From a virus: 34,762 bases of DNA. The translations under genes and the position numbers were made by a program. Of the stretch, positions 11,212 through 34,069 are shown piece after piece. The notes beneath the pieces were generated by a model. It did not search any database and had not been told where the DNA came from. It was given only the letters and a program-made list of their open reading frames with translations. Location: the IMG/VR virus record IMGVR_UViG_3300025120_007152, positions 1-34,762 of that record, one strand, 5' to 3'. Position 1 is the first letter of the stretch. Every line of letters starts with the position of its first letter.

Positions 11212-11461
11212 CAATTTCTCCTATGAGTTCTCTTACCATTTTTGGATCCATACGAACAAGTGCTTGCCCACCTCCTGCTACCAGTAGTTTTCCATTATTA
11301 TAAATTTGAGGCATAGTTCTATGCCCTTCACTTATCAAAAACTCTCTAGCTTCAAGATTGGTATCCACTCGTATTTCTTCGTATTCGAATCCGTTTGTTT
11401 CAAGGTATTGTTTAGCCATTGTGCAATAATGACACAATGGCTTACTATATACTGTAATCAC
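11189..11461 (-). CDS. grx: Glutaredoxin
   Basis: The 90-residue protein has the glutaredoxin fold: 'MITVYSKPLCHYCTMAKQYL' with a CHYC redox motif at residues 10-13, a 'TMPQIYNNGKLLVAGG' cis-Pro and GSH-binding loop, and a C-terminal helix. It should supply electrons to the phage ribonucleotide reductase, as T4 NrdC does. The start is GTG, overlapping the nrdB stop as GTGA. Gene order nrdA-nrdB-grx in one transcription unit supports the role. Full family length. Confidence 0.93.
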   Translation of the reverse strand: MITVYSKPLCHYCTMAKQYLETNGFEYEEIRVDTNLEAREFLISEGHRTMPQIYNNGKLLVAGGGQALVRMDPKMVRELIGEIDVGDIQL

Positions 11462-12585
11462 AATTTCATCCCTTGGAATGTGCTACCGTTAACATCTTGC
11501 TTAGTGCCGCCAATAACGTAACTACTAATCTCAGTTTCTTGTGGTGCTACTTGTACTTCTGCGCCTGCAATCCACTTTTGTGTCCAAGGTAAAGGATTAC
11601 TTACACCTTTGTATGGACTTTCAAGTCCAACTGCCGTCATACGTTTATTAGCAGTCCATTCAACATATTCACCCAATAGTTGTGCATTTAGTCCAATCAT
11701 TGATCCGTCCTTAAACAAATAGTCTGCCCAGGCTTTCTCTTGGTCCACTGCATCTACAAATAGTTGCACCATTTCGTCCCGAGTTTCTTCTTGGATACGA
11801 GCAAAGTCGGGATCATCTTTGGGCATCAGTTTTAGTAATGTTTGGGTACTACCCAAATGTACATTCTCATCTCTACAAATAAGTTTAATAATCTTAGCAT
11901 TGCCTTCCATCTTTTTAAGTTCAGCAAATGCCCAGCTACATGCAAATGATACATAAAAGCGAACACCTTCAAGAATGTTTACACTCATCATTGCTTTCCA
12001 AATTAGCTTTTTAAGATCGTACAGATCAACTTTAATTTTCTTACCGTTAACTGTATGTGTACCTTCACCTAGTAGGTTGTACCACATGCCCATTTCAATA
12101 AGATCATCATAGTGCTTGCTAATATCGCCTGCACAATCCATAATCTCACTAATATCCATCATACCATCAAAGATAATACTAGGATTTGAATACACATTAC
12201 GAATAATATGTGTGTAACTACGACTGTGAATAGTTTCGTTAAATGTCCATGTTGTTACCCAATTTTCAAGTTCGGGTAAACTTACCAGTGGATTGAAACT
12301 GTCTGCAGGAGCTCGACCTTGAACACTGTCCAATAAGATCTGGCGTTTTAAGTTACTTGTAAAAATATGTTGTTCGTGGTCTGTCAACTCTTTAAAGTCT
12401 TTTGCATCACGCAACACATCTACTTCTTCGGGTCTCCAAAAGAAACCCAACTGTTTGTCAGTTAGTTTGTCAAACTGACGATACTTCAAAGTATCATAGC
12501 GTTGAATATCAACGCCTCCGTTCGGATCTAGGAACATTAAACTTTCGAGGTGCTTGTTCCGTTGATTTGCATTTAATACACTCAT
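11458..12585 (-). CDS. nrdB: Ribonucleotide reductase class Ia, small subunit
   Basis: The 375-residue protein aligns along its length with E. coli NrdB (376). The di-iron ligands are all present (D86, E117, H120, E206, E240, H243), as is the radical tyrosine Y124. Key blocks are 'FFWRPEEVDVLRD', 'ETIHSRSYTHIIRN', 'LLGEGTHTVNGK' and 'CRDENVHLGSTQ'. The C-terminal tail that docks to NrdA is present. With NrdA it makes deoxyribonucleotides for phage DNA synthesis. It lies 12 nt after nrdA with an AGAGAAG site and overlaps glutaredoxin. All key residues are kept, so it is likely active. Confidence 0.97.
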   Translation of the reverse strand: MSVLNANQRNKHLESLMFLDPNGGVDIQRYDTLKYRQFDKLTDKQLGFFWRPEEVDVLRDAKDFKELTDHEQHIFTSNLKRQILLDSVQGRAPADSFNPLVSLPELENWVTTWTFNETIHSRSYTHIIRNVYSNPSIIFDGMMDISEIMDCAGDISKHYDDLIEMGMWYNLLGEGTHTVNGKKIKVDLYDLKKLIWKAMMSVNILEGVRFYVSFACSWAFAELKKMEGNAKIIKLICRDENVHLGSTQTLLKLMPKDDPDFARIQEETRDEMVQLFVDAVDQEKAWADYLFKDGSMIGLNAQLLGEYVEWTANKRMTAVGLESPYKGVSNPLPWTQKWIAGAEVQVAPQETEISSYVIGGTKQDVNGSTFQGMKL

Positions 12586-12597
12586 TGCTTCTCTTTC

Positions 12598-14901
12598 TTA
12601 TATTACACAGCTTTCGCAGTCTTCTTCTTCAAATTCATCTTCGTCTACAGTTATATTACTTGATTCATTTAATTTGTCAATATCTAATTCACCTTGTCCA
12701 TCATAGGTGTTGAAATAATACAACTGTTTACCACCGTATTTGTAGAAGATCATTAAATGTCTTAGCATTTCACTCATGCTAATCTTTTCATCTTCATAAA
12801 ATACTGGATTGTAACTAGTATTAACACTAATGCCCTGGTCAATATACTTTTGTAATACTGCCATAATTTGTAAGTATCCTTCTGGGCTTCGTTGATCCCA
12901 TAGTAATTCATACTTGTTCTTTAGCTTGTGTATACTTGGCACCACTTGTTTTAGGACACCATGTTTACTTTGCTTGACACTTACAAGACTGCGAGGTGGT
13001 TCAATGCCGTTTGTAGCATTGCTTATTTGTGCTGATGTTTCAGCTGGCATTAGTGCCATTAGTGTTGAATTTCTAATTCCTGTACGCTTTAGTTGATCTC
13101 TTAGTTCTCTCCAAGGCATACGTTCTTTGTGTGCGACTAGTTCGTCTACATCTTGTTTGTATGTTTGGTTAGGTGTAAGTCCATTATGATATTTGGTTTG
13201 ATCACTCCACAAACATGCACCTTGCTCTTCAGCTAGGTCTGCACTTGCTTTGATTAGATAGTAACTCCATGCTTCTGCAAATTCGTCAATCATTTCCAAG
13301 TTTGGTTGTGTATATGACATATTGTTTTTCGCCATCCAAAATGCCAAGTTAATAATACCAACACCCAACGGACGTCTGCCTTCTGTTGCATTTTGTGCCG
13401 CCTTTACAGGATAGTCTTGATATGTTAATAGTGCATCAAGTCCTCTAACAGCTAGTTCACAAGGCTTTGCAAATTCTTCAGGTGTTTTAATTTTACCCCA
13501 ATTGATAGCACTCAATGTACACAATGCAATTTCACCTTCTTCGTCATTGAAGTCGTTAAGAGGTTTAGTTGGCAAATCAATCTCTGCACATAGGTTGCTT
13601 TGTCTAATTGGTGCAACTTCTTCTATAAAGCTACTGTGACTATTTGCATTATCTACATTTTGTAGATAAATTCTACCTGTGTTTTTACGCTCTTCCATAA
13701 ACATACTAAACAATTCTGTTGCACCGATTGTTTTCTTGCGTAGTCTTGTATTGCGTTCTGCACGTTCGTATAGTTCTTTAAACTTGTCTTGGTCTGCAAA
13801 AAATGCTTCGTACAAACCAGGAACATCGCTAGGTGAGAATAATGTAATTTCTCCGTTGCTAATTAATCTTTCATAAAACAATTTGTTAAACTGTACACCA
13901 TAGTCCATATGACGCACACGGTTATCGTCTGTACCTTTGTTATTCTTAAGTACGAGTAGGTCTTCTACTTCATAGTGCCAGATTGGATAGTATAGTGTTG
14001 CCGCTCCGTTTCGCACTCCGCCTTGACTACAACTCCTTGTTGCACTTTGAAACATTTTGTAGAATGGTACGACTCCTGTGTGATAGGCGTCACCCTTACG
14101 AATGGGACTTCCGAGAGCCCGTATATTGCCGGCGCCGATTCCAATTCCTGCTTTTGCTGAAACATACTTAACGATGCTACTAGTAGTAGCATTGATGCTA
14201 TCAAGGCTATCGTCAGTCTCAATAAGGACGCATGACGAAAATTGGCGTTGTGGAGTTCTAACGCCAGCCATGACAGGAGTAGGAAGGCTAATATAAAATA
14301 ATGAAACTGCGTCATAATAATCCTTTACCCATTGCAATCTTGTTTCTCTCGGGTATTCAGCAAACAATGTTGCTGAGATTAGCATGTACGCCATTTGTGG
14401 AGTTTCTTTGATTATATTTGTAACACGATTTTGTACAAGATACTTGCCACGCCATTGTTCCATAGCGGCATATGTCATAGTTTCATCTCTGTCGTGTTTA
14501 AGATGCGAATTTAATTCATCCCATTCTTCGTCTGTGTAGTTTTCTAATAGACTTGAATCGTAGAATCCTTCGTCTACATTGGTCTTAATTAGTTCAAGTA
14601 TATGCCACGGATCGTATTGTCCGTAAACCATTTTGCGAAGGTGATACACAATTAGTCGTCCAGCTACCCACTGATAGTTTGGTTGTTCTTCACTAATTAA
14701 ATCTGCCGCACTTTTAATGAGTGTTTCTTGAATCTCACTACTGGTAATACCACTATAAAATTGTAAACTGCTTTTAATTTCTACTTCACTTGCACTAACA
14801 CCGTTAAGATTTTCACACGCTGAAAATACTACTTTATGCAACTTTTCTAAATCTAATGTGTCTTTATTACCATTTCGTTTGACTACTTGAATTTCACTCA
14901 T
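12598..14901 (-). CDS. nrdA: Ribonucleotide reductase class Ia, large subunit
   Basis: The 767-residue protein has an N-terminal ATP-cone (about residues 1-90), suggesting dATP inhibition as in E. coli. The barrel has the catalytic cysteines C224, C438 and C461. N436 and E440 form the 'NLCAE' motif, and Y728 and Y729 belong to the radical-transfer path. The tail ends CESCVI, giving the mobile CxxC pair that accepts electrons from glutaredoxin. Length matches E. coli NrdA (761). An AGAAGGA site precedes the ATG. No intron or homing endonuclease interrupts it, unlike some phage nrd genes. Confidence 0.97.
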   Translation of the reverse strand: MSEIQVVKRNGNKDTLDLEKLHKVVFSACENLNGVSASEVEIKSSLQFYSGITSSEIQETLIKSAADLISEEQPNYQWVAGRLIVYHLRKMVYGQYDPWHILELIKTNVDEGFYDSSLLENYTDEEWDELNSHLKHDRDETMTYAAMEQWRGKYLVQNRVTNIIKETPQMAYMLISATLFAEYPRETRLQWVKDYYDAVSLFYISLPTPVMAGVRTPQRQFSSCVLIETDDSLDSINATTSSIVKYVSAKAGIGIGAGNIRALGSPIRKGDAYHTGVVPFYKMFQSATRSCSQGGVRNGAATLYYPIWHYEVEDLLVLKNNKGTDDNRVRHMDYGVQFNKLFYERLISNGEITLFSPSDVPGLYEAFFADQDKFKELYERAERNTRLRKKTIGATELFSMFMEERKNTGRIYLQNVDNANSHSSFIEEVAPIRQSNLCAEIDLPTKPLNDFNDEEGEIALCTLSAINWGKIKTPEEFAKPCELAVRGLDALLTYQDYPVKAAQNATEGRRPLGVGIINLAFWMAKNNMSYTQPNLEMIDEFAEAWSYYLIKASADLAEEQGACLWSDQTKYHNGLTPNQTYKQDVDELVAHKERMPWRELRDQLKRTGIRNSTLMALMPAETSAQISNATNGIEPPRSLVSVKQSKHGVLKQVVPSIHKLKNKYELLWDQRSPEGYLQIMAVLQKYIDQGISVNTSYNPVFYEDEKISMSEMLRHLMIFYKYGGKQLYYFNTYDGQGELDIDKLNESSNITVDEDEFEEEDCESCVI

Positions 14902-24933: not shown

Positions 24934-25367
24934 ACAGGTACACCAAATATTTCATTGTCATCTATTATATATTCAAAGTTTTGGCATGTATCTGATCGAC
25001 TTATTCTTGTGGCTCCGTTTCTAATATGAAACTTGCTTGCCATTTCTGTTAATGGGCTTAAGGTTACAAGTCTATATACACCTTGTTTACCTTTCATTAA
25101 GTCAGCTAATTTATTTACAATGGCTCTCCCTGCGCCTTTTTTACTACTCCATACAGTATATGCTACTGCGACGGAGCCTGTTTCGTTTTGGTATTTTTCT
25201 AATTCTTGTTCTGTTGTTGGTACATGTGTGCAATAACATACACAAATTACTGCTGATAAATCATCTAGAACATATACCTGTTTGCCTGGACCTATCTTAG
25301 GAATATGTAGACGTACTGGATCACTGTCAAGTATATCCAGCTCATTTATACTAATTAATCTAATCAC
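24930..25367 (-). CDS. GNAT-like acetyltransferase-fold protein
   Basis: The 145-residue protein has the core of a GNAT fold: a central 'GSVAVAYTVWSSKKGAGRAI' with a GAG-type acyl-CoA loop and following helix ('VNKLADLM'). 'YRLVTLSPLTEMASKFHIRN' then 'GATRIS' matches the usual 'A..fY...GF' segment. It could acylate a host protein, small molecule or RNA. The start is GTG, sharing one base with the helicase stop (TAGTG), so it is coupled to gp41. No classic R-x-x-G-x-G motif, so activity is uncertain. Confidence 0.65.
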   Translation of the reverse strand: MIRLISINELDILDSDPVRLHIPKIGPGKQVYVLDDLSAVICVCYCTHVPTTEQELEKYQNETGSVAVAYTVWSSKKGAGRAIVNKLADLMKGKQGVYRLVTLSPLTEMASKFHIRNGATRISRSDTCQNFEYIIDDNEIFGVPV

Positions 25368-26758
25368 TACTCGCTCTTTCTCAACAAACTTTTAAGTCTA
25401 TCTGTTGCATCTATTTGTGGATTTGCATCCATATTATTCTCAGTTACGCTTTCGCCTGCTGGTGCAACACTACTCTTTGTTTTTAGTTTTTGATATATGC
25501 TAGTTGTACTAGTATCATCTTGTTCACTTTCGTCTAAATCTTCGATCTTCAAACTGTCCATGTTAAATGCTAAGTCTAGTTTACTACCAACACCACTACT
25601 ACTTCTAGTTTTCATAAATTGTATTTGTACTCTACCACGCTCTCGCATAGCTCTACTGCTAAAGATACCAATTAAATTATCTGCTGTATTGATCTTACTA
25701 ATACCACCTGCAATGTGGCTGTGGTCAAATTCAATTTCATCAACTGCACTACGATTCAACTGCGAAGCTGTAACAAATAGTATTCCTAATTCAGTTGCTA
25801 AGTTTCTAAGTTCTTCACTAACAAACTTGTCTTTAATAAATTGATCGCTTGGATTAACTTTTACTGTAACTGGCATCATAAGATCCAAATAGTCGACCAG
25901 TAGTGCATCAACATGCAAGTTGTGTTGTATCTGATATTCTCTCATATATGCTTTGATGTCATTAACAGTAGTACCATTCTTCATTTGTATTACTTGCAAT
26001 TTGCCTGCTTTCTTACTAGCCATCTTAACACGCAATTCCACATCACTGCTATTCTTCATTACATCTTTAGTACTCATACCTGTGAGCATAGCATCCAGTC
26101 TCATAGCACATAATTCTTCACTAAGTTCCAAACTAATGTACACTACGTTCTTGCCTTGCAATGCCCAGTTCAGTGCCAAGTTCTGCATAAACAAACTCTT
26201 ACCACTGCCACTACCACCTGCAAAGATGTTTAGTTCGCCTGGATTAAAGCCACCATACAGTACTCTATCAAATGTATCCCACCCACTACTGTTCTGTCCT
26301 CTATTATCTTTAATTGCTTGAATACGTCCTGCAGGATCATCCCAATAGTTTGTACCAAAGTTTTTAGCAAGTCCGATCTCTGTTGCCGCTTTAATAATAC
26401 CTTCTACTGTTCCATACTCTTTGTTCTCAAGTTTATCTGCACTTTCAAGTATTGCCGCTTCTAGTGCTTTGTGTCTACAGAATTGTTCAAAGTTATCCAT
26501 AAACCAATTTTTATGTTCTACTGTCAGCTTATCACGCACATCAGATATTTCAACACCAGCAACACCTTTGACCTGTTCTAACATGGGAACATCGTTATAT
26601 TCATCTGCATGTTTTTTTACAAAGTCCACAGTATCTCTAAACTGCCTATCAAAGTAACTGCTTTCTAAGATAGCATTACAACGTACAAATAGATCCTTGT
26701 CTGCCAACAAGAATTCTAAGTACAGTTTCTGTAAGTCTGGTGTATAATCTTCGCTCAT
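25367..26758 (-). CDS. gp41: Replicative DNA helicase, DnaB/T4 gp41 type
   Basis: The 463-residue protein has a small N-terminal helical domain, then a RecA-like core with Walker A GGSGSGKS at 181-188 and Walker B 'ALLVDYLDLM' near 287. It also has 'ASQLNRSAVDE' and arginine-finger-type 'MKTRSSSGVG' near the end. T4 gp41 is a 475-residue hexameric 5'-3' helicase working with gp61 primase on the lagging strand. The AAAGGA site and its place directly after primase support this. The acidic tail ('DLDESEQDDTST') is typical of marine T4-like homologues. Confidence 0.93.
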   Translation of the reverse strand: MSEDYTPDLQKLYLEFLLADKDLFVRCNAILESSYFDRQFRDTVDFVKKHADEYNDVPMLEQVKGVAGVEISDVRDKLTVEHKNWFMDNFEQFCRHKALEAAILESADKLENKEYGTVEGIIKAATEIGLAKNFGTNYWDDPAGRIQAIKDNRGQNSSGWDTFDRVLYGGFNPGELNIFAGGSGSGKSLFMQNLALNWALQGKNVVYISLELSEELCAMRLDAMLTGMSTKDVMKNSSDVELRVKMASKKAGKLQVIQMKNGTTVNDIKAYMREYQIQHNLHVDALLVDYLDLMMPVTVKVNPSDQFIKDKFVSEELRNLATELGILFVTASQLNRSAVDEIEFDHSHIAGGISKINTADNLIGIFSSRAMRERGRVQIQFMKTRSSSGVGSKLDLAFNMDSLKIEDLDESEQDDTSTTSIYQKLKTKSSVAPAGESVTENNMDANPQIDATDRLKSLLRKSE

Positions 26759-26775
26759 AATATTCCTTTATTATA

Positions 26776-27819
26776 CTACCTGCATCTTGTTTTCGCAAGT
26801 ATTTTAATTTTTGTTGCATTTGTTTCTGTGCTTTCTAGCACACTCTTAACCGTAAATAATCTTCCATATCTTATTACTGCATCACTGGCATCTTTAATAT
26901 CTTTTTCCCAAGGAGGAAAACTTACTGCCCAGCCTCGTTTTACTGCTACATTTACAGTATCCATGCCACTGTTATCAAAGTCTGGCAATAACACTATTTG
27001 TTTATCCAAATCTTCAATAATTTTACATTGTGTACTGTTTGGAGTGTTTCCAGCTAGTGCAACTCCTCCCATTTGTAATGCATCCAACTGTCCTTCTGTT
27101 ACAACAACTGTATCATGTGTTTCCTGTGCAACTAAGTTGTATACAAAATTCTTAGGCATATTATTGTAGTACTTGGGCATTGCTTCAGGTCTATTCTCAG
27201 GACACCATCTTGCTGTGTAACCAACAATTTTTCTTGTTGGGCCTTGTCTACCCCAGTCTTTATAATAAAATGGAAGTATAACTCTATTTGCAAAATGCAT
27301 GTGTGGTGACCAATGCCAGTCCTCACAAAAGTCTAGTCCTCTTTTCATAACATATGTACATGCTAGTGCTAGTTTTTCTAATTGTTTCTTGTCCAACTGA
27401 TCTATAGGATATTCACCAATACGATAACTGTTTGGAGGAAGTTCAACCGCGGGCCAATCTATTTTTATTTTTTCTTCTACTTGTTTTTCTATATACTGTC
27501 CAGCAATATTACCTGCTTCTTGCTCTCGCAAAAGTTCAAAGTTAATGCGTTGTATGTCACTTTCATCTGTACCAAATACTTTAAGTAAATCTGCTAGCTT
27601 TCCAGCTATACGTCTACCATCTCTCCAACCAGTTTTAAATCCACAGTTAAAACAGTTGTATTGAAATTGGTCATCGTGGAACATTATGCCTCCACGTTTG
27701 CGTTTATCTGGGCTATGCCCGCGAGTAGCACACATTGGACAGTTACCACTAACCCAACCGCTAGGAGTTTGCTTCCAACCACCAGGCATTTGCTGACGAA
27801 TAAAGTCTAATACTATCAT
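26776..27819 (-). CDS. gp61: DNA primase, T4 gp61 type
   Basis: The 347-residue protein has an N-terminal zinc ribbon with CPMC at 27-30 and CFNC at 56-59, for template recognition. A toprim core follows, with 'VVVTEGQLDALQMGG' (the catalytic Glu) and 'VLLPDFDNSGMDTV' (the DxD motif). T4 gp61 is 342 residues. It makes RNA primers with the gp41 helicase, the next gene. The sigma70 promoter at 27826-27854 ends exactly 6 nt before the ATG, with no ribosome binding site, so the primase message should be leaderless and early. Confidence 0.92.
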   Translation of the reverse strand: MIVLDFIRQQMPGGWKQTPSGWVSGNCPMCATRGHSPDKRKRGGIMFHDDQFQYNCFNCGFKTGWRDGRRIAGKLADLLKVFGTDESDIQRINFELLREQEAGNIAGQYIEKQVEEKIKIDWPAVELPPNSYRIGEYPIDQLDKKQLEKLALACTYVMKRGLDFCEDWHWSPHMHFANRVILPFYYKDWGRQGPTRKIVGYTARWCPENRPEAMPKYYNNMPKNFVYNLVAQETHDTVVVTEGQLDALQMGGVALAGNTPNSTQCKIIEDLDKQIVLLPDFDNSGMDTVNVAVKRGWAVSFPPWEKDIKDASDAVIRYGRLFTVKSVLESTETNATKIKILAKTRCR

Positions 27820-28605: not shown

Positions 28606-28625
28606 AATGTTCAAATCCTTACTAG

Positions 28626-28633
28626 TATTTATT
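28626..28633 (-). promoter_or_regulatory. Late promoter AATAAATA for the 27829-28605 structural gene
   Basis: The box lies 20 nt upstream of the ATG at 28605 with AAGGA between. It is in the short divergent gap between the two genes. Confidence 0.7.
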
Positions 28634-28648
28634 AGACTAAGTACTACG

Positions 28649-29029
28649 ATGACAAACATTCCTAAGAAATATCAAGAGCTATTAGACCAGTTTCCATTCT
28701 TAACATTAATCTTGTATGGTGGTAACGAATATGTTGGTATCATACAGAATATGGATAACAACTTAGCTAGTATGTATAACTTTAACAGTATTAAAGATAG
28801 TACAGACAAAAAACAATTTTTAGAACTTGGAGAAGAATGGTGGTGGGGTACCAATAGAATGATACCTATCAATATTATTTTTAAAACAAGTTTTGAGAAA
28901 TATAGAACTTGTCTACTTACTTTTAGTATTAAAGATTTTCAAGTATTACATGGTCCAACTATTAGCTTAAACAATATTATACAAAAAAGAGTTAAGCGGA
29001 GAAATATCCAACTAGTTCGCAGACTGTAA
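28649..29029 (+). CDS. Conserved unknown protein, the only rightward gene
   Basis: The 126-residue protein begins MTNIPKKYQELLDQFPFLTL and contains 'LYGGNEYVGIIQNMDNNLAS', 'FLELGEEWWWGTNRMIPINI' and 'HGPTISLNNIIQKRVKRRNI'. I recall similar proteins with the WWW and 'GPT.SLN...QKR.KRR' blocks in T4-like cyanophages, without known function. The basic end suggests nucleic-acid or ribosome contact. An ATG 14 codons upstream is possible but would overlap the opposite leader. No clear ribosome binding site is seen. The last 18 nt overlap the mini-DnaE gene antisense. Confidence 0.75.
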   Translation: MTNIPKKYQELLDQFPFLTLILYGGNEYVGIIQNMDNNLASMYNFNSIKDSTDKKQFLELGEEWWWGTNRMIPINIIFKTSFEKYRTCLLTFSIKDFQVLHGPTISLNNIIQKRVKRRNIQLVRRL

Positions 29030-29590
29030 TTGTTCACATAGTAAATTCATGTGTATAACTACAACCATTGCGTAACTAATTGCATGGGCTTTCTTAAAGT
29101 AGTAAGCCTTATTGTCTCTTATTGGTTTTACCCAAACTTCTTTCATTATCGTTGGCCACCCTTTGTCTTGTAGATGACGTTTGGCTGGTCTGATGATCGC
29201 TAGTGTCGCCGCTAATTGTTCTACCGACTGCGGCTTCAATCGTTTCAACAGACCGTCGTGTCCTGACACATGAAAGACTTTTTCTACGAAGTCTTCGTGG
29301 GTTAACAACTCCCATATTGGTTCCCTTTCCATTAATTCTGCGAGATGATCGTCATCTCTAATATCTTTGTATATGCTAACGTTCAACAAATCTAATTTAA
29401 AAAATTCGTGTTCGTCAGCTTCTGTGTGTTCAACAGTACAAATGTTGGTAAAAGGATTGCTTGGTACCCTGTGAAAATATACACCTGTATTATGCTTGCG
29501 TTGCTTTAACTTAGCTGGCGTATGTTTGAACAATTCTAATGCTTGTGCTCTATCTGCAAAATCTATATCAATATCCGGTAAACTAGACAT
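29012..29590 (-). CDS. Miniature DnaE-like protein with polymerase active-site motifs
   Basis: The 192-residue protein carries, in the DnaE order, PDIDIDF at 5-11 (the two catalytic acids), 'FFKLDLLNVS' (D67 against the third acid in 'KFDFLGL'), 'VFHVSGHDGLLKRLKPQSVE' and 'LAIIRPAKR' (against 'VFQLES.G...LIKRLQP' and 'LVALFRPGPL'), and 'FKKAHAISYAM' (against 'FNKSHAVAYAL'). Bacterial DnaE is about 1,160 residues; the PHP, fingers and OB parts are missing. I recall similar short proteins in T4-like cyanophages. It could be an inactive mimic, a clamp or DNA binder, or a tiny polymerase. The chosen start at 29590 has GGAACAGAGG ahead and overlaps the 2OG gene. Confidence 0.8.
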   Translation of the reverse strand: MSSLPDIDIDFADRAQALELFKHTPAKLKQRKHNTGVYFHRVPSNPFTNICTVEHTEADEHEFFKLDLLNVSIYKDIRDDDHLAELMEREPIWELLTHEDFVEKVFHVSGHDGLLKRLKPQSVEQLAATLAIIRPAKRHLQDKGWPTIMKEVWVKPIRDNKAYYFKKAHAISYAMVVVIHMNLLCEQLQSAN

Positions 29591-30200
29591 CCTCTGTTCC
29601 TTGTTGTTCTTTGTAGTATGTAGAATGAAAGTTAAATGAAATACTAACTCGTTCTTCATCTGTGTTATTTGCTTCGACGCTGTGCCTTACCCAACTTGGA
29701 AATACAATTAGTTTACCTGTTTCACTTGGATAATGCCAAGTTACTGCATTAAAATGATTATAACCATTCCGCTGTGGAGGCAAATAGTGTTCTGCTCCGT
29801 CAGTACGTTCAATTGAAAATCCTCCCATTTCAGGACTACAGTAAGGATAGTATACTCCGCTTAACAACGAGCCTGGATGACAATGTGGATAATTATACGC
29901 TCCTTTGCCATTTATAATATACCAAATGTTACCTAATTCAACTCCCCCAAGTTGCGTATTCTTTGCACAATCATCAACGTGTTCTGTAATTGTGTTTACA
30001 AGATGTATAAATGCCTGATTATCACTGCCTGCTATTTCCTGACTATGGTATCCATTACGATTACTTCTAAACAATCCATCTTCGTCTTGTTCTCTAAAAC
30101 TATTGCCGTATTTTACTAGTTCCTCGTTATCAATACCTTCTAGCGTTACATTCCAAATAATGCTAGGAAACCACATATCCATATGCATCTTATTTTCCAT
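29583..30200 (-). CDS. 2OG-Fe(II) oxygenase
   Basis: The 205-residue protein resembles the 2OG-FeII_Oxy_5 type found often in marine phages: 'YNYPHCHPGSLLSGVYY' (HxH at 106-108), 'LIVFPSWVRHSVEAN' (distal His, H173) and 'ERVSISFNF' (the 2-oxoglutarate-binding Arg, R184). The enzymes use 2-oxoglutarate and iron to hydroxylate a substrate, here unknown. Its start overlaps the zinc-finger gene by 11 nt and its end overlaps the mini-DnaE gene. Confidence 0.87.
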   Translation of the reverse strand: MENKMHMDMWFPSIIWNVTLEGIDNEELVKYGNSFREQDEDGLFRSNRNGYHSQEIAGSDNQAFIHLVNTITEHVDDCAKNTQLGGVELGNIWYIINGKGAYNYPHCHPGSLLSGVYYPYCSPEMGGFSIERTDGAEHYLPPQRNGYNHFNAVTWHYPSETGKLIVFPSWVRHSVEANNTDEERVSISFNFHSTYYKEQQGTEDV

Positions 30201-30894
30201 CTATCATCTCCTCTACAAAATTTGCATCATGTGGATTTAGCTGTCTTTTCTTACCCCAATAGTCAGCATCAATACAATTTGCAATTCTAGTCATACATTC
30301 AGCTGGCATTGTTTCTAATGCAGTTTGTGCCCTGTTACTACTAATAAGTAGCCATGGACTAATCTTTCCCATTTCAACCCAATCAGCAATTAAGTATCCA
30401 CTGGCACTTTCCCAAAATGTTTCAAAGTATTCTGTTGCACTTGCGTGTTCTACAAAACGTTCCAATGCACGTTCTACACTTTCACGTTTACAATGATCTT
30501 GTACAAACAACAAATACATTTTATCAGTGGGCCAATCTTTTAGTTTGGCTTTGTTCTTAATAAGCCAACGTGTAAACTGTTCTTGGTCAATAACTTTGGT
30601 GTTCAAACAATATGAACCAAACTTTACAAAAGCTGTATAATATTGACTGTCTACAAAGTCTTTATATTCTTTGGGTTTACTTTGCATTTCAATTCTATAA
30701 AACAAATCATAACTAGCAAATCCAACCAAGACATCTTGGCTATCTTTGTTTTGCCAACGTCTTTTCTTTTCACAACTATGCGCCAACAGAGTGCTTTCTC
30801 TTTGAAAACTCTTCTTGCAATATTCACATTTAAAAGTGTTTTTGCTCAATTGAACGCTTCCTACTGCACTTAGCACTTGCTGTACTGTTGTCAT
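30190..30894 (-). CDS. C2H2-type zinc-finger protein, unknown function
   Basis: The 234-residue protein has one zinc finger near the start: C23, C26, H39 and C41 in 'FKCEYCKKSFQRESTLLAHS'. The rest is helical, Trp/Tyr/Phe-rich ('DVLVGFASYDLFYRIEMQSK') with basic patches. I recall a similar zinc-finger protein in T4-like cyanophages without a known role. It may bind DNA or RNA. Its ATG overlaps the stop of the small membrane gene. Confidence 0.75.
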   Translation of the reverse strand: MTTVQQVLSAVGSVQLSKNTFKCEYCKKSFQRESTLLAHSCEKKRRWQNKDSQDVLVGFASYDLFYRIEMQSKPKEYKDFVDSQYYTAFVKFGSYCLNTKVIDQEQFTRWLIKNKAKLKDWPTDKMYLLFVQDHCKRESVERALERFVEHASATEYFETFWESASGYLIADWVEMGKISPWLLISSNRAQTALETMPAECMTRIANCIDADYWGKKRQLNPHDANFVEEMIDGK

Positions 30895-32114: not shown

Positions 32115-32618
32115 TTACCATAAATCCTCTGTACTCAGTACATCGGGAATCTTGTTTGTTTCCTTAACAAAATATATGCACGGACTATCTTTTGTTTCTA
32201 ATAACGGCACTGCTAATATATGTCCAAACTTTAGTTTAGGAAAGTACCATTTTACTTCTTGATATATGTTTACTATTTCTATTTCTGCAAATGTTGGAAG
32301 AAATCCTGTCAACGGATTAAAAATAAATGCTTTAAAACCTCTATCATTTAAACTTGTTATAGGTAATACTTCTGGATCTCCTATACTAGGATCACATACA
32401 ATTAAACTCCAATCCAATGGTACTTTTACTTGTAGTTGACCAACTTGTAGTACAGCCGCAGGACTATTAAAACTTTCTAAGAACACCAACGGAACAAAAA
32501 TATAATCGGCTTCCTTAGGGTTGCTATAATCTAAAACACAGTATCGTATATCTTCTATTTCTTCAGGAACAAAATCTAAGTCATATGATTCGTTCTCTAC
32601 TGTTAATATTTTTGTCAT
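32115..32618 (-). CDS. Conserved T4-like marine phage protein, 167 residues
   Basis: It begins MTKILTVENESYDLDFVPEE. 'VKVPLDWSLIVCDPSIGDPE', 'LNDRGFKAFIFNPLTGFLPT' and 'KWYFPKLKFGHILAVPL' are blocks I recall from a widely conserved unnamed cyanophage protein. It is beta-rich with no membrane helix. The ATG overlaps the UvsW stop as ATGA, so the two are translated together. The consistent link to UvsW suggests a role in replication or recombination. Confidence 0.75.
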   Translation of the reverse strand: MTKILTVENESYDLDFVPEEIEDIRYCVLDYSNPKEADYIFVPLVFLESFNSPAAVLQVGQLQVKVPLDWSLIVCDPSIGDPEVLPITSLNDRGFKAFIFNPLTGFLPTFAEIEIVNIYQEVKWYFPKLKFGHILAVPLLETKDSPCIYFVKETNKIPDVLSTEDLW

Positions 32619-34069
32619 TTATAATTCACCTTTTCAATATGAAAGGGATACTTGGCTTCTCGATAAAATTTCTTTCGCTCAGTCAAATGTCTCTTGCTAA
32701 ATTTTGCACTACTGGTTATATCCCATATTTGTACATGGTCTTTATCCTGTGCTTTTCTTATGCCTCTTCCTATACTTTGTATAACTCTAACAAAACTTTT
32801 GCCGGGCTCCACAAGGACCAAGTTAAAGATACGGGGAATATTAATTCCCACACTAGCAACTCCGTATGTTGCTACAATAATTTTATTGTTTGTATCGCTA
32901 ACTTCGTCGTACTCTTCTTTTCTGTTTTTACTTTTCATACTACCACTTACAAATACAGTGTCTTCGCCTAAACGTTCTACTAAGCCTTCTCCTGCTTTAA
33001 TACGGTCCACTAGTACAAGTGTATTACCTGCTAGTGCCATTTTTTGTATCATCTCAGCCATATAGTCCAGTCTGTCTTTATTAGTTGTAAGATACGTTAG
33101 TTCACTTTGATAGTCTCCGTAACTAACGCTGTCTTGCAGTTGTAGCACATTAACATCACAGTTGGCTAGTACACCCATGTCTTGTAGTTCATGAGCACTC
33201 AGACTGTTTACTACTTCCCCTAAACTAACTTCTAAACTTAATCGTTCATGGTCTGCTTTGGGTATTGTACCTGTTAGCCCCCAACGAATTGGAATATTAG
33301 AGAATGCACCAGTTAGCAATTTCTTTAATACGTCTGCCTTAGCCTGATGAACTTCGTCTACCATAACACATACAACACCCTCCGCAAAATCGTGTAACCC
33401 ACTGTCGCTCAGTCCGTCTCTGAATCTTTTTTCCAAAACATTTAAACTCTGCCAAGTACATATGGTATGAGTTCGCCCCAACTCTTTTCTATCACCGAAA
33501 TAGACTCCTACATCAAGTCCCAAGTTTATATAATCAGCTTCGGTTTGCGTTACCAAATCCTTATTGGGTACTATGACTATCGTTCGACCATAGGGTTCAC
33601 ACTTGTAACTCAGTGCCGCGGTAATTAGTGTTTTACCTGCACCGGTTGCTATCTCCTGCAAACAATGTGGAGTTTCCAGGAATTGATTTATAACTGCTAC
33701 TTGATAGTCACGCAATACTATTGGTTCGCCAGCGGCTGGATGTTTAGGGGGCCACACTCGATCAGAGAACAACGCCTCAGTTACTAAATCAAATTGAAAA
33801 CTATGTGGTTCTCTCTCGTCCTCTATATCAATTGAATATCCTTCTTCTTCGAGTACGGGGAGGATAAAAGGTAAACAATTTACAAATGTCATACCACCCA
33901 TGGTAAAATATCCTACACATCCATCCCATCTGCCTAACTTGTATGCTGGCACATGAAATGCATAAGGTAAGAAAAACTTGAGTTTCTTTTCAAGTTTACG
34001 GCGAGTAGTTAAAGCCAAGCCTTCAAACTTACAGTTGACTTCATCTTTGAGAATCAGTTTTGTTTTCAT
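32615..34069 (-). CDS. uvsW: UvsW-type SF2 helicase
   Basis: The 484-residue protein resembles T4 UvsW (503). A small N-terminal domain ('RRKLEKKLKFFLPYAFHVPA') precedes the helicase core, with motif I ATGAGKT at 141-147, motif II DEVH at 238-241, motif III 'LTGTIP', and motif VI 'QSIGRGIRKAQDKDH'. UvsW unwinds branched DNA and R-loops and helps switch T4 from origin- to recombination-dependent replication. A sigma70 promoter (34076-34104) ends 6 nt before the ATG, with no ribosome binding site, so its mRNA should be leaderless. Confidence 0.94.
   Translation of the reverse strand: MKTKLILKDEVNCKFEGLALTTRRKLEKKLKFFLPYAFHVPAYKLGRWDGCVGYFTMGGMTFVNCLPFILPVLEEEGYSIDIEDEREPHSFQFDLVTEALFSDRVWPPKHPAAGEPIVLRDYQVAVINQFLETPHCLQEIATGAGKTLITAALSYKCEPYGRTIVIVPNKDLVTQTEADYINLGLDVGVYFGDRKELGRTHTICTWQSLNVLEKRFRDGLSDSGLHDFAEGVVCVMVDEVHQAKADVLKKLLTGAFSNIPIRWGLTGTIPKADHERLSLEVSLGEVVNSLSAHELQDMGVLANCDVNVLQLQDSVSYGDYQSELTYLTTNKDRLDYMAEMIQKMALAGNTLVLVDRIKAGEGLVERLGEDTVFVSGSMKSKNRKEEYDEVSDTNNKIIVATYGVASVGINIPRIFNLVLVEPGKSFVRVIQSIGRGIRKAQDKDHVQIWDITSSAKFSKRHLTERKKFYREAKYPFHIEKVNYK

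Follow-up and report, generated by a model that had tools for sequence, protein, structure and literature searches.

How can a protein of 192 residues carry the catalytic motifs of the bacterial DNA polymerase III alpha subunit (DnaE), an enzyme of 1160 residues? The question is raised by an open reading frame (ORF) in the window, by which we mean the whole stretch of 34,762 nucleotides of virus record IMGVR_UViG_3300025120_007152 that was analyzed. Our answer to the puzzle of so small a polymerase is that the protein is half of one. We estimate at roughly 70% the probability that it represents the C-terminal half, with the metal-binding residues, of a minimal C-family (DnaE-type) polymerase that lacks a thumb and consists of two chains assembling without splicing. 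The split itself and the fold are well supported.

The gene and its active-site residues

The ORF is intact on the minus strand and its boundaries are exact, while the plus strand of the same interval contains many stops. Its ATG and the stop codon of the 2OG-Fe oxygenase gene lying upstream overlap by 8 bp (ATGTCTAG). The gene and its key codons are:

29012..29590, minus strand: phrog_11778 gene (192 codons and a stop) for the C-half of a split minimal Pol III alpha
29567..29575, minus strand: D6-I7-D8 codons, encoding the metal ligands of the DxD motif (D401 and D403 in E. coli)
29390..29398, minus strand: codons of K65-L66-D67, with the third catalytic Asp (E. coli K553, D555)
29084..29086, minus strand: H169 codon (the residue corresponds to H760, the steric gate)

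Residues 6-188 of the protein match positions 8-195 of the 197 in the phrog_11778 profile ("DNA polymerase") at 3.3e-61. The DnaE motifs that a sequence-only reading had recognized in a protein one sixth the size of the enzyme are indeed present in DnaE order, and they are not chance resemblances. PDIDIDF corresponds to E. coli DnaE residues 400-406, KHNTG to position 510 (K510-H511), KLDLL to 553, VFHVSG to 608, IIRPAK to 638 and FKKAHAISYA to 756-765 (FNKSHSAAYA). Matches outside the family are weaker: the 192-residue protein reaches 1.3e-10 with phrog_405 (full-size phage DnaE) and 3e-4 with TIGR00594, and in a PDB sequence search DnaE appears at E 0.06 at best. When the C-half family is compared by hhalign to the single E. 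coli DnaE sequence, only a weak local match results (E 2.6e-3, probability 12%), a consequence of long deletions that interrupt the alignment and of the limited depth of the family (Neff 2.5). Structural alignment, described below, is clearer than this profile-profile comparison.

Vaisman et al. 2021 (PMC8485763) name D401, D403 and D555 as the active-site triad of E. coli Pol III alpha and H760, which does not vary among Pol III alpha proteins, as its presumptive steric gate. All three catalytic aspartates are kept as D6, D8 and D67, as had been proposed, and relatives do not lose them: they are present in 84/84 of the non-redundant relatives (<90% identity) that formed the conservation set. 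D10, H33, G36, K65, R134, P135, K137, K167 and H169 are equally invariant in this set. The constancy of the steric-gate histidine H169 argues for the use of dNTPs. With a dN/dS of 0.07-0.12 against near relatives, the ORF is a real gene under constraint.

A second protein with the missing part of the palm

In E. coli DnaE numbering, the chain runs from position 397 to about 784. Compared to the bacterial enzymes (E. coli NP_414726, Taq 2HPI/3E0D, M. tuberculosis 5LEW) it shares the order of the motifs, the DxD, the third aspartate, the KxD and RP motifs, the F-K-x-H steric-gate helix and the predicted fold of the palm and some of the fingers. What it lacks is considerable. The thumb, between the DxD and the KHAGG strand, is reduced from about 100 residues to about 20, and the stretch of fingers from RPGP (640) to FNKSH (756) from about 116 to about 30. 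The LRRAMGKK fingers motif is gone, so triphosphate binding must differ. The PHP, HhH, OB, clamp-binding and C-terminal parts are absent as well, and the clamp-binding motif QADMF (920-924) lies far beyond the retained region. Without a thumb, it is difficult to imagine the protein acting as an ordinary polymerase. The first palm segment is also missing, and with it the nucleotide-binding loop GRGS (E. coli 361-364), which is part of the nucleotidyltransferase signature. The C-half contains no GS motif upstream of the DxD that would give a single-chain arrangement of the Pol-beta type; in the relatives just 1-18 residues precede the DxD.

A Pfam PF07733 search in phages carrying the C-half revealed a second protein of about 166-185 residues (in 4/4 of the first-tested isolates and in two large contigs). 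This N-half is phrog_11127 (2e-50); it matches the first third of PF07733 only and stops directly after FLN/EFL, and its GxGRGS motif is invariant in 74/74 N-halves. By tblastn it was found alongside the C-half in 58 of the 60 listed records, and an HMM search added Vibrio 2.275.O (59/60). The sole record without it is a 109-kb partial genome from a genus with genomes of about 346 kb. Both halves also occur together in the genomes G001, G003 and G036. The two genes are located about 14-224 kb apart (record coordinates). No N-half was found within the 34.8-kb window, itself a fragment, and we infer that the phage from which the window derives would encode it elsewhere. In a tree of C-halves, with modest support, carriers of the N-half are placed on several sides of the window's clade.

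We modeled each half separately with AlphaFold2 on family alignments and compared the models with the PDB using VIA-align and Foldseek. The C-half model (pLDDT 89.9, pTM 0.81) aligns over residues 1-191 to E. coli DnaE 397-784, Taq 458-838 and M. tuberculosis 416-811. Its best structural match has a Z of 9.2 (rmsd 4.3 over 187); the top 14 VIA-align rows are all DnaE or PolC (Z 5.9-9.2) and the next, unrelated row drops to Z 3.5. For the N-half (pLDDT 84.9, pTM 0.68), residues 74-187 align to E. coli DnaE 279-393, Taq 296-455 and M. tuberculosis 307-413; the matches to DnaE and PolC reach Z 8.0-12.4, with a best rmsd of 2.4 over 98, against 3.0 for the next unrelated row. Foldseek E-values are weak on their own (at best 7e-3 for the C-half and 9e-3 for the N-half). 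The two models, built independently, together cover DnaE 279-784, with a seam of three residues and no overlap, and the same holds for the DnaE of all three species. The sequence-only reading had called for a structure prediction compared to the DnaE palm; the C-half model follows palm and fingers (397-784), with the thumb and most of the fingers missing.

Given that the family B polymerase of MIJ3, one of these phages, carries inteins (PMC6892783), it matters whether the halves could be joined by a split intein. The N-half ends 29-31 residues past GRGS, at EFL, and the C-half starts 1-18 residues before the DxD; neither chain has room for an intein half, which rules this out. As a consequence the pair, if associated, would be joined non-covalently. 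Natural fusions of the halves are not present among 202 C-half and 111 N-half ORFs.

Two further N-half matches, from Staphylococcus phage Kay and Tenacibaculum phage Larrie, come without a C-half and proved to be ordinary DnaE in one or two pieces. In Larrie (ON950054, L389:1646-5226) an ordinary DnaE is divided near the same seam (FLN / PDIDSDF) into adjacent ORFs of 515 and 676 aa. The first of these has a tail of about 55 aa past FLN, possibly an intein half or a remnant.

Distribution, neighborhood and earlier descriptions

The C-half is present in 63 public phage records, some of which are GenBank and RefSeq copies of one genome; carriers include RaK2-like and PA5oct-like phages, Atu_ph07, Phosso, SCTP-2, XacN1 and Vibrio 2.275.O. 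More than 570 IMG/VR stretches encode relatives of nearly constant length. The window protein is 46-50% identical to the C-halves of Atu_ph07 and Phosso. Five matches in a genome collection concern contigs of metagenome-assembled bacterial or archaeal genomes (L383-L387: Neomarinimicrobiota, Rickettsiales, Pacearchaeota and others). Since one such contig (G036:C57) holds both halves, 213 kb apart, these are most likely mis-binned jumbo phages rather than cellular carriers.

The neighbors conserved around the C-half gene are:

25367..26758, minus strand: gp41/DnaB-like replicative helicase
26776..27819, minus strand: gp61-like DNA primase
28607..29029, plus strand: phrog_11637, convergent
30190..30894, minus strand: zinc-finger-like protein, phrog_11058
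32615..34069, minus strand: UvsW-like helicase

The order UvsW, (phrog_11058), C-half, convergent small ORF, virion protein, gp61 primase, gp41 helicase is common, with insertions, to the window, Phosso, Atu_ph07, RaK2, PAC2, Vibrio 2.275.O and SCTP-2. The phrog_11058 gene adjoins the C-half in the window as well as in relatives, and its product may be an additional component. Immediately upstream of the C-half the window has the 2OG-Fe(II) oxygenase (29583-30200); in other phages this slot holds other genes (for example a deformylase-like gene in L271-L273), which suggests that genes are exchanged at this position. The window also encodes the ribonucleotide reductase subunits NrdA and NrdB (phrog_84 and phrog_86, 11458-14901), as do phages that make their own dNTPs.

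A family B polymerase is encoded in 7/7 isolates tested and in G001 and G003, and was not found on the 34.8-kb window fragment. In the four IMG/VR contigs that show both, the N-half and the family B gene lie about 23-32 kb apart, a proximity that fits the absence of both from fragments such as the window.

About two dozen C-half loci encode, near gp41, another C-family protein: a PHP-less DnaE core of about 548 aa in a single chain (phrog_405-like, in marine phages). Its positions are:

L272:3488-5131, minus strand: DnaE core of about 548 aa
L271:2406-4049, minus strand: DnaE core of about 548 aa
L324-L382: further loci with this core

This core resembles the split protein in its C-family palm with DxD and KxD, carries a loop of the GSAG type and sits just downstream of gp41 in C-half phages; it differs in being one chain, in having a thumb, albeit a short one, and in the YRRAFAKK motif of its fingers. 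The window has no such gene next to gp41. On the six contigs with the core that were searched (41-108 kb) neither a separate N-half nor a family B polymerase gene was found. The single-chain core may stand in for the split enzyme or act alongside it.

A split minimal Pol III alpha has been described from sequence in group 2.2 jumbo phages (Iyer et al. 2021, Viruses 13:63, PMC7824862); its C-half corresponds to PHROG 11778 and its N-half to 11127. By profile (3e-61) the window protein belongs to the same family, of which it is an environmental member. The division into an NTP-binding and a Mg2+/template-binding protein, encoded by distant genes, is the same, and the family B background is likewise found in the window's relatives. 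Other reports touch on single elements: one half was noted as truncated in CBB (PMC5259590), a predicted Pol III alpha was listed for Atu_ph07 (PMC6102473), and PF07733 serves as a marker of a marine jumbo phage cluster (PMC9123017). Our literature search found no experimental test of the activity or interaction of a split Pol III alpha. To the account of Iyer et al. we add the exact seam, conservation per residue, the steric gate, co-occurrence counts and the exclusion of an intein.

Proposed mechanism and competing explanations

In the mechanism that we propose, the three aspartates that bind metal, the strand with the KxD motif, fingers of reduced length and the FKKAHA helix, on which the steric-gate histidine sits, would come from the C-half. 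The N-half (phrog_11127) would add the GRGS nucleotide-binding loop together with the first part of the palm. Non-covalent association of the two would rebuild the palm active site. Because the thumb, PHP, OB and clamp-binding parts are absent, such a pair would be expected to make short stretches of DNA in a poorly processive (distributive) manner, beside the family B replicase of the phage. The pair might serve to fill gaps or extend primers close to the gp41/gp61 primosome, or else act in recombination linked to UvsW. A more far-reaching idea, which we regard as possible but doubtful, is that a palm split over two genes tens to hundreds of kb apart, its thumb lost, constitutes a distinct enzyme for short-patch or end-adding synthesis that works alongside a replisome of family B; two unrelated polymerase families would then divide the labor.

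The main rival is that the halves form a non-templated nucleotidyltransferase, adding nucleotides to an end of DNA or RNA or to a protein. This would account for the loss of the thumb: it is the parts holding primer and template (the thumb and most of the fingers) that have disappeared, whereas the catalytic residues are kept. Nevertheless two elements that contact the dNTP in DnaE, the FKKAHA helix and the histidine of the steric gate, are invariant, and across distant phages the gene is grouped with those for primase, helicase and UvsW, which renders this alternative unlikely. We judge it quite improbable that the protein is instead a catalytically silent decoy or regulator of the host replisome or clamp, as the sequence-only reading had suggested. 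The protein is small, resembles the host DnaE and has no known activity; however, the clamp-binding (QADMF) and tau-binding C-terminal parts of DnaE lie outside what was retained, metal ligands, KxD and steric gate are unexpectedly invariant for a decoy in 84 diverse relatives, and the protein co-occurs with a partner bearing the complementary half of the active site.

The same reading had also considered a minimal enzyme acting on its own, or a primase-like activity. Three aspartates in one chain and a confident single-chain model would agree with a stand-alone polymerase or primase, yet the chain starts past the GS/GRGS loop and a second small protein with that loop is present in essentially every complete genome; the primase variant finds no support, a gp61-like primase being encoded nearby. 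We therefore consider a stand-alone enzyme very improbable. That only short motifs match the full DnaE could finally point to a decaying fragment of such a gene or to an assembly artefact, but an intact ORF, a dN/dS of about 0.1, near-constant length among the more than 570 environmental relatives and the preserved gene order effectively rule this out.

The two-chain polymerase that we favor bears on the question whether small forms of C-family polymerases are reduced or ancestral. If the pair works, it would show how little of a C-family polymerase is required for catalysis, and that a palm active site can be assembled from two separately encoded chains. It would also mean that some common marine and enteric jumbo phages use polymerases of family B and of family C alongside each other.
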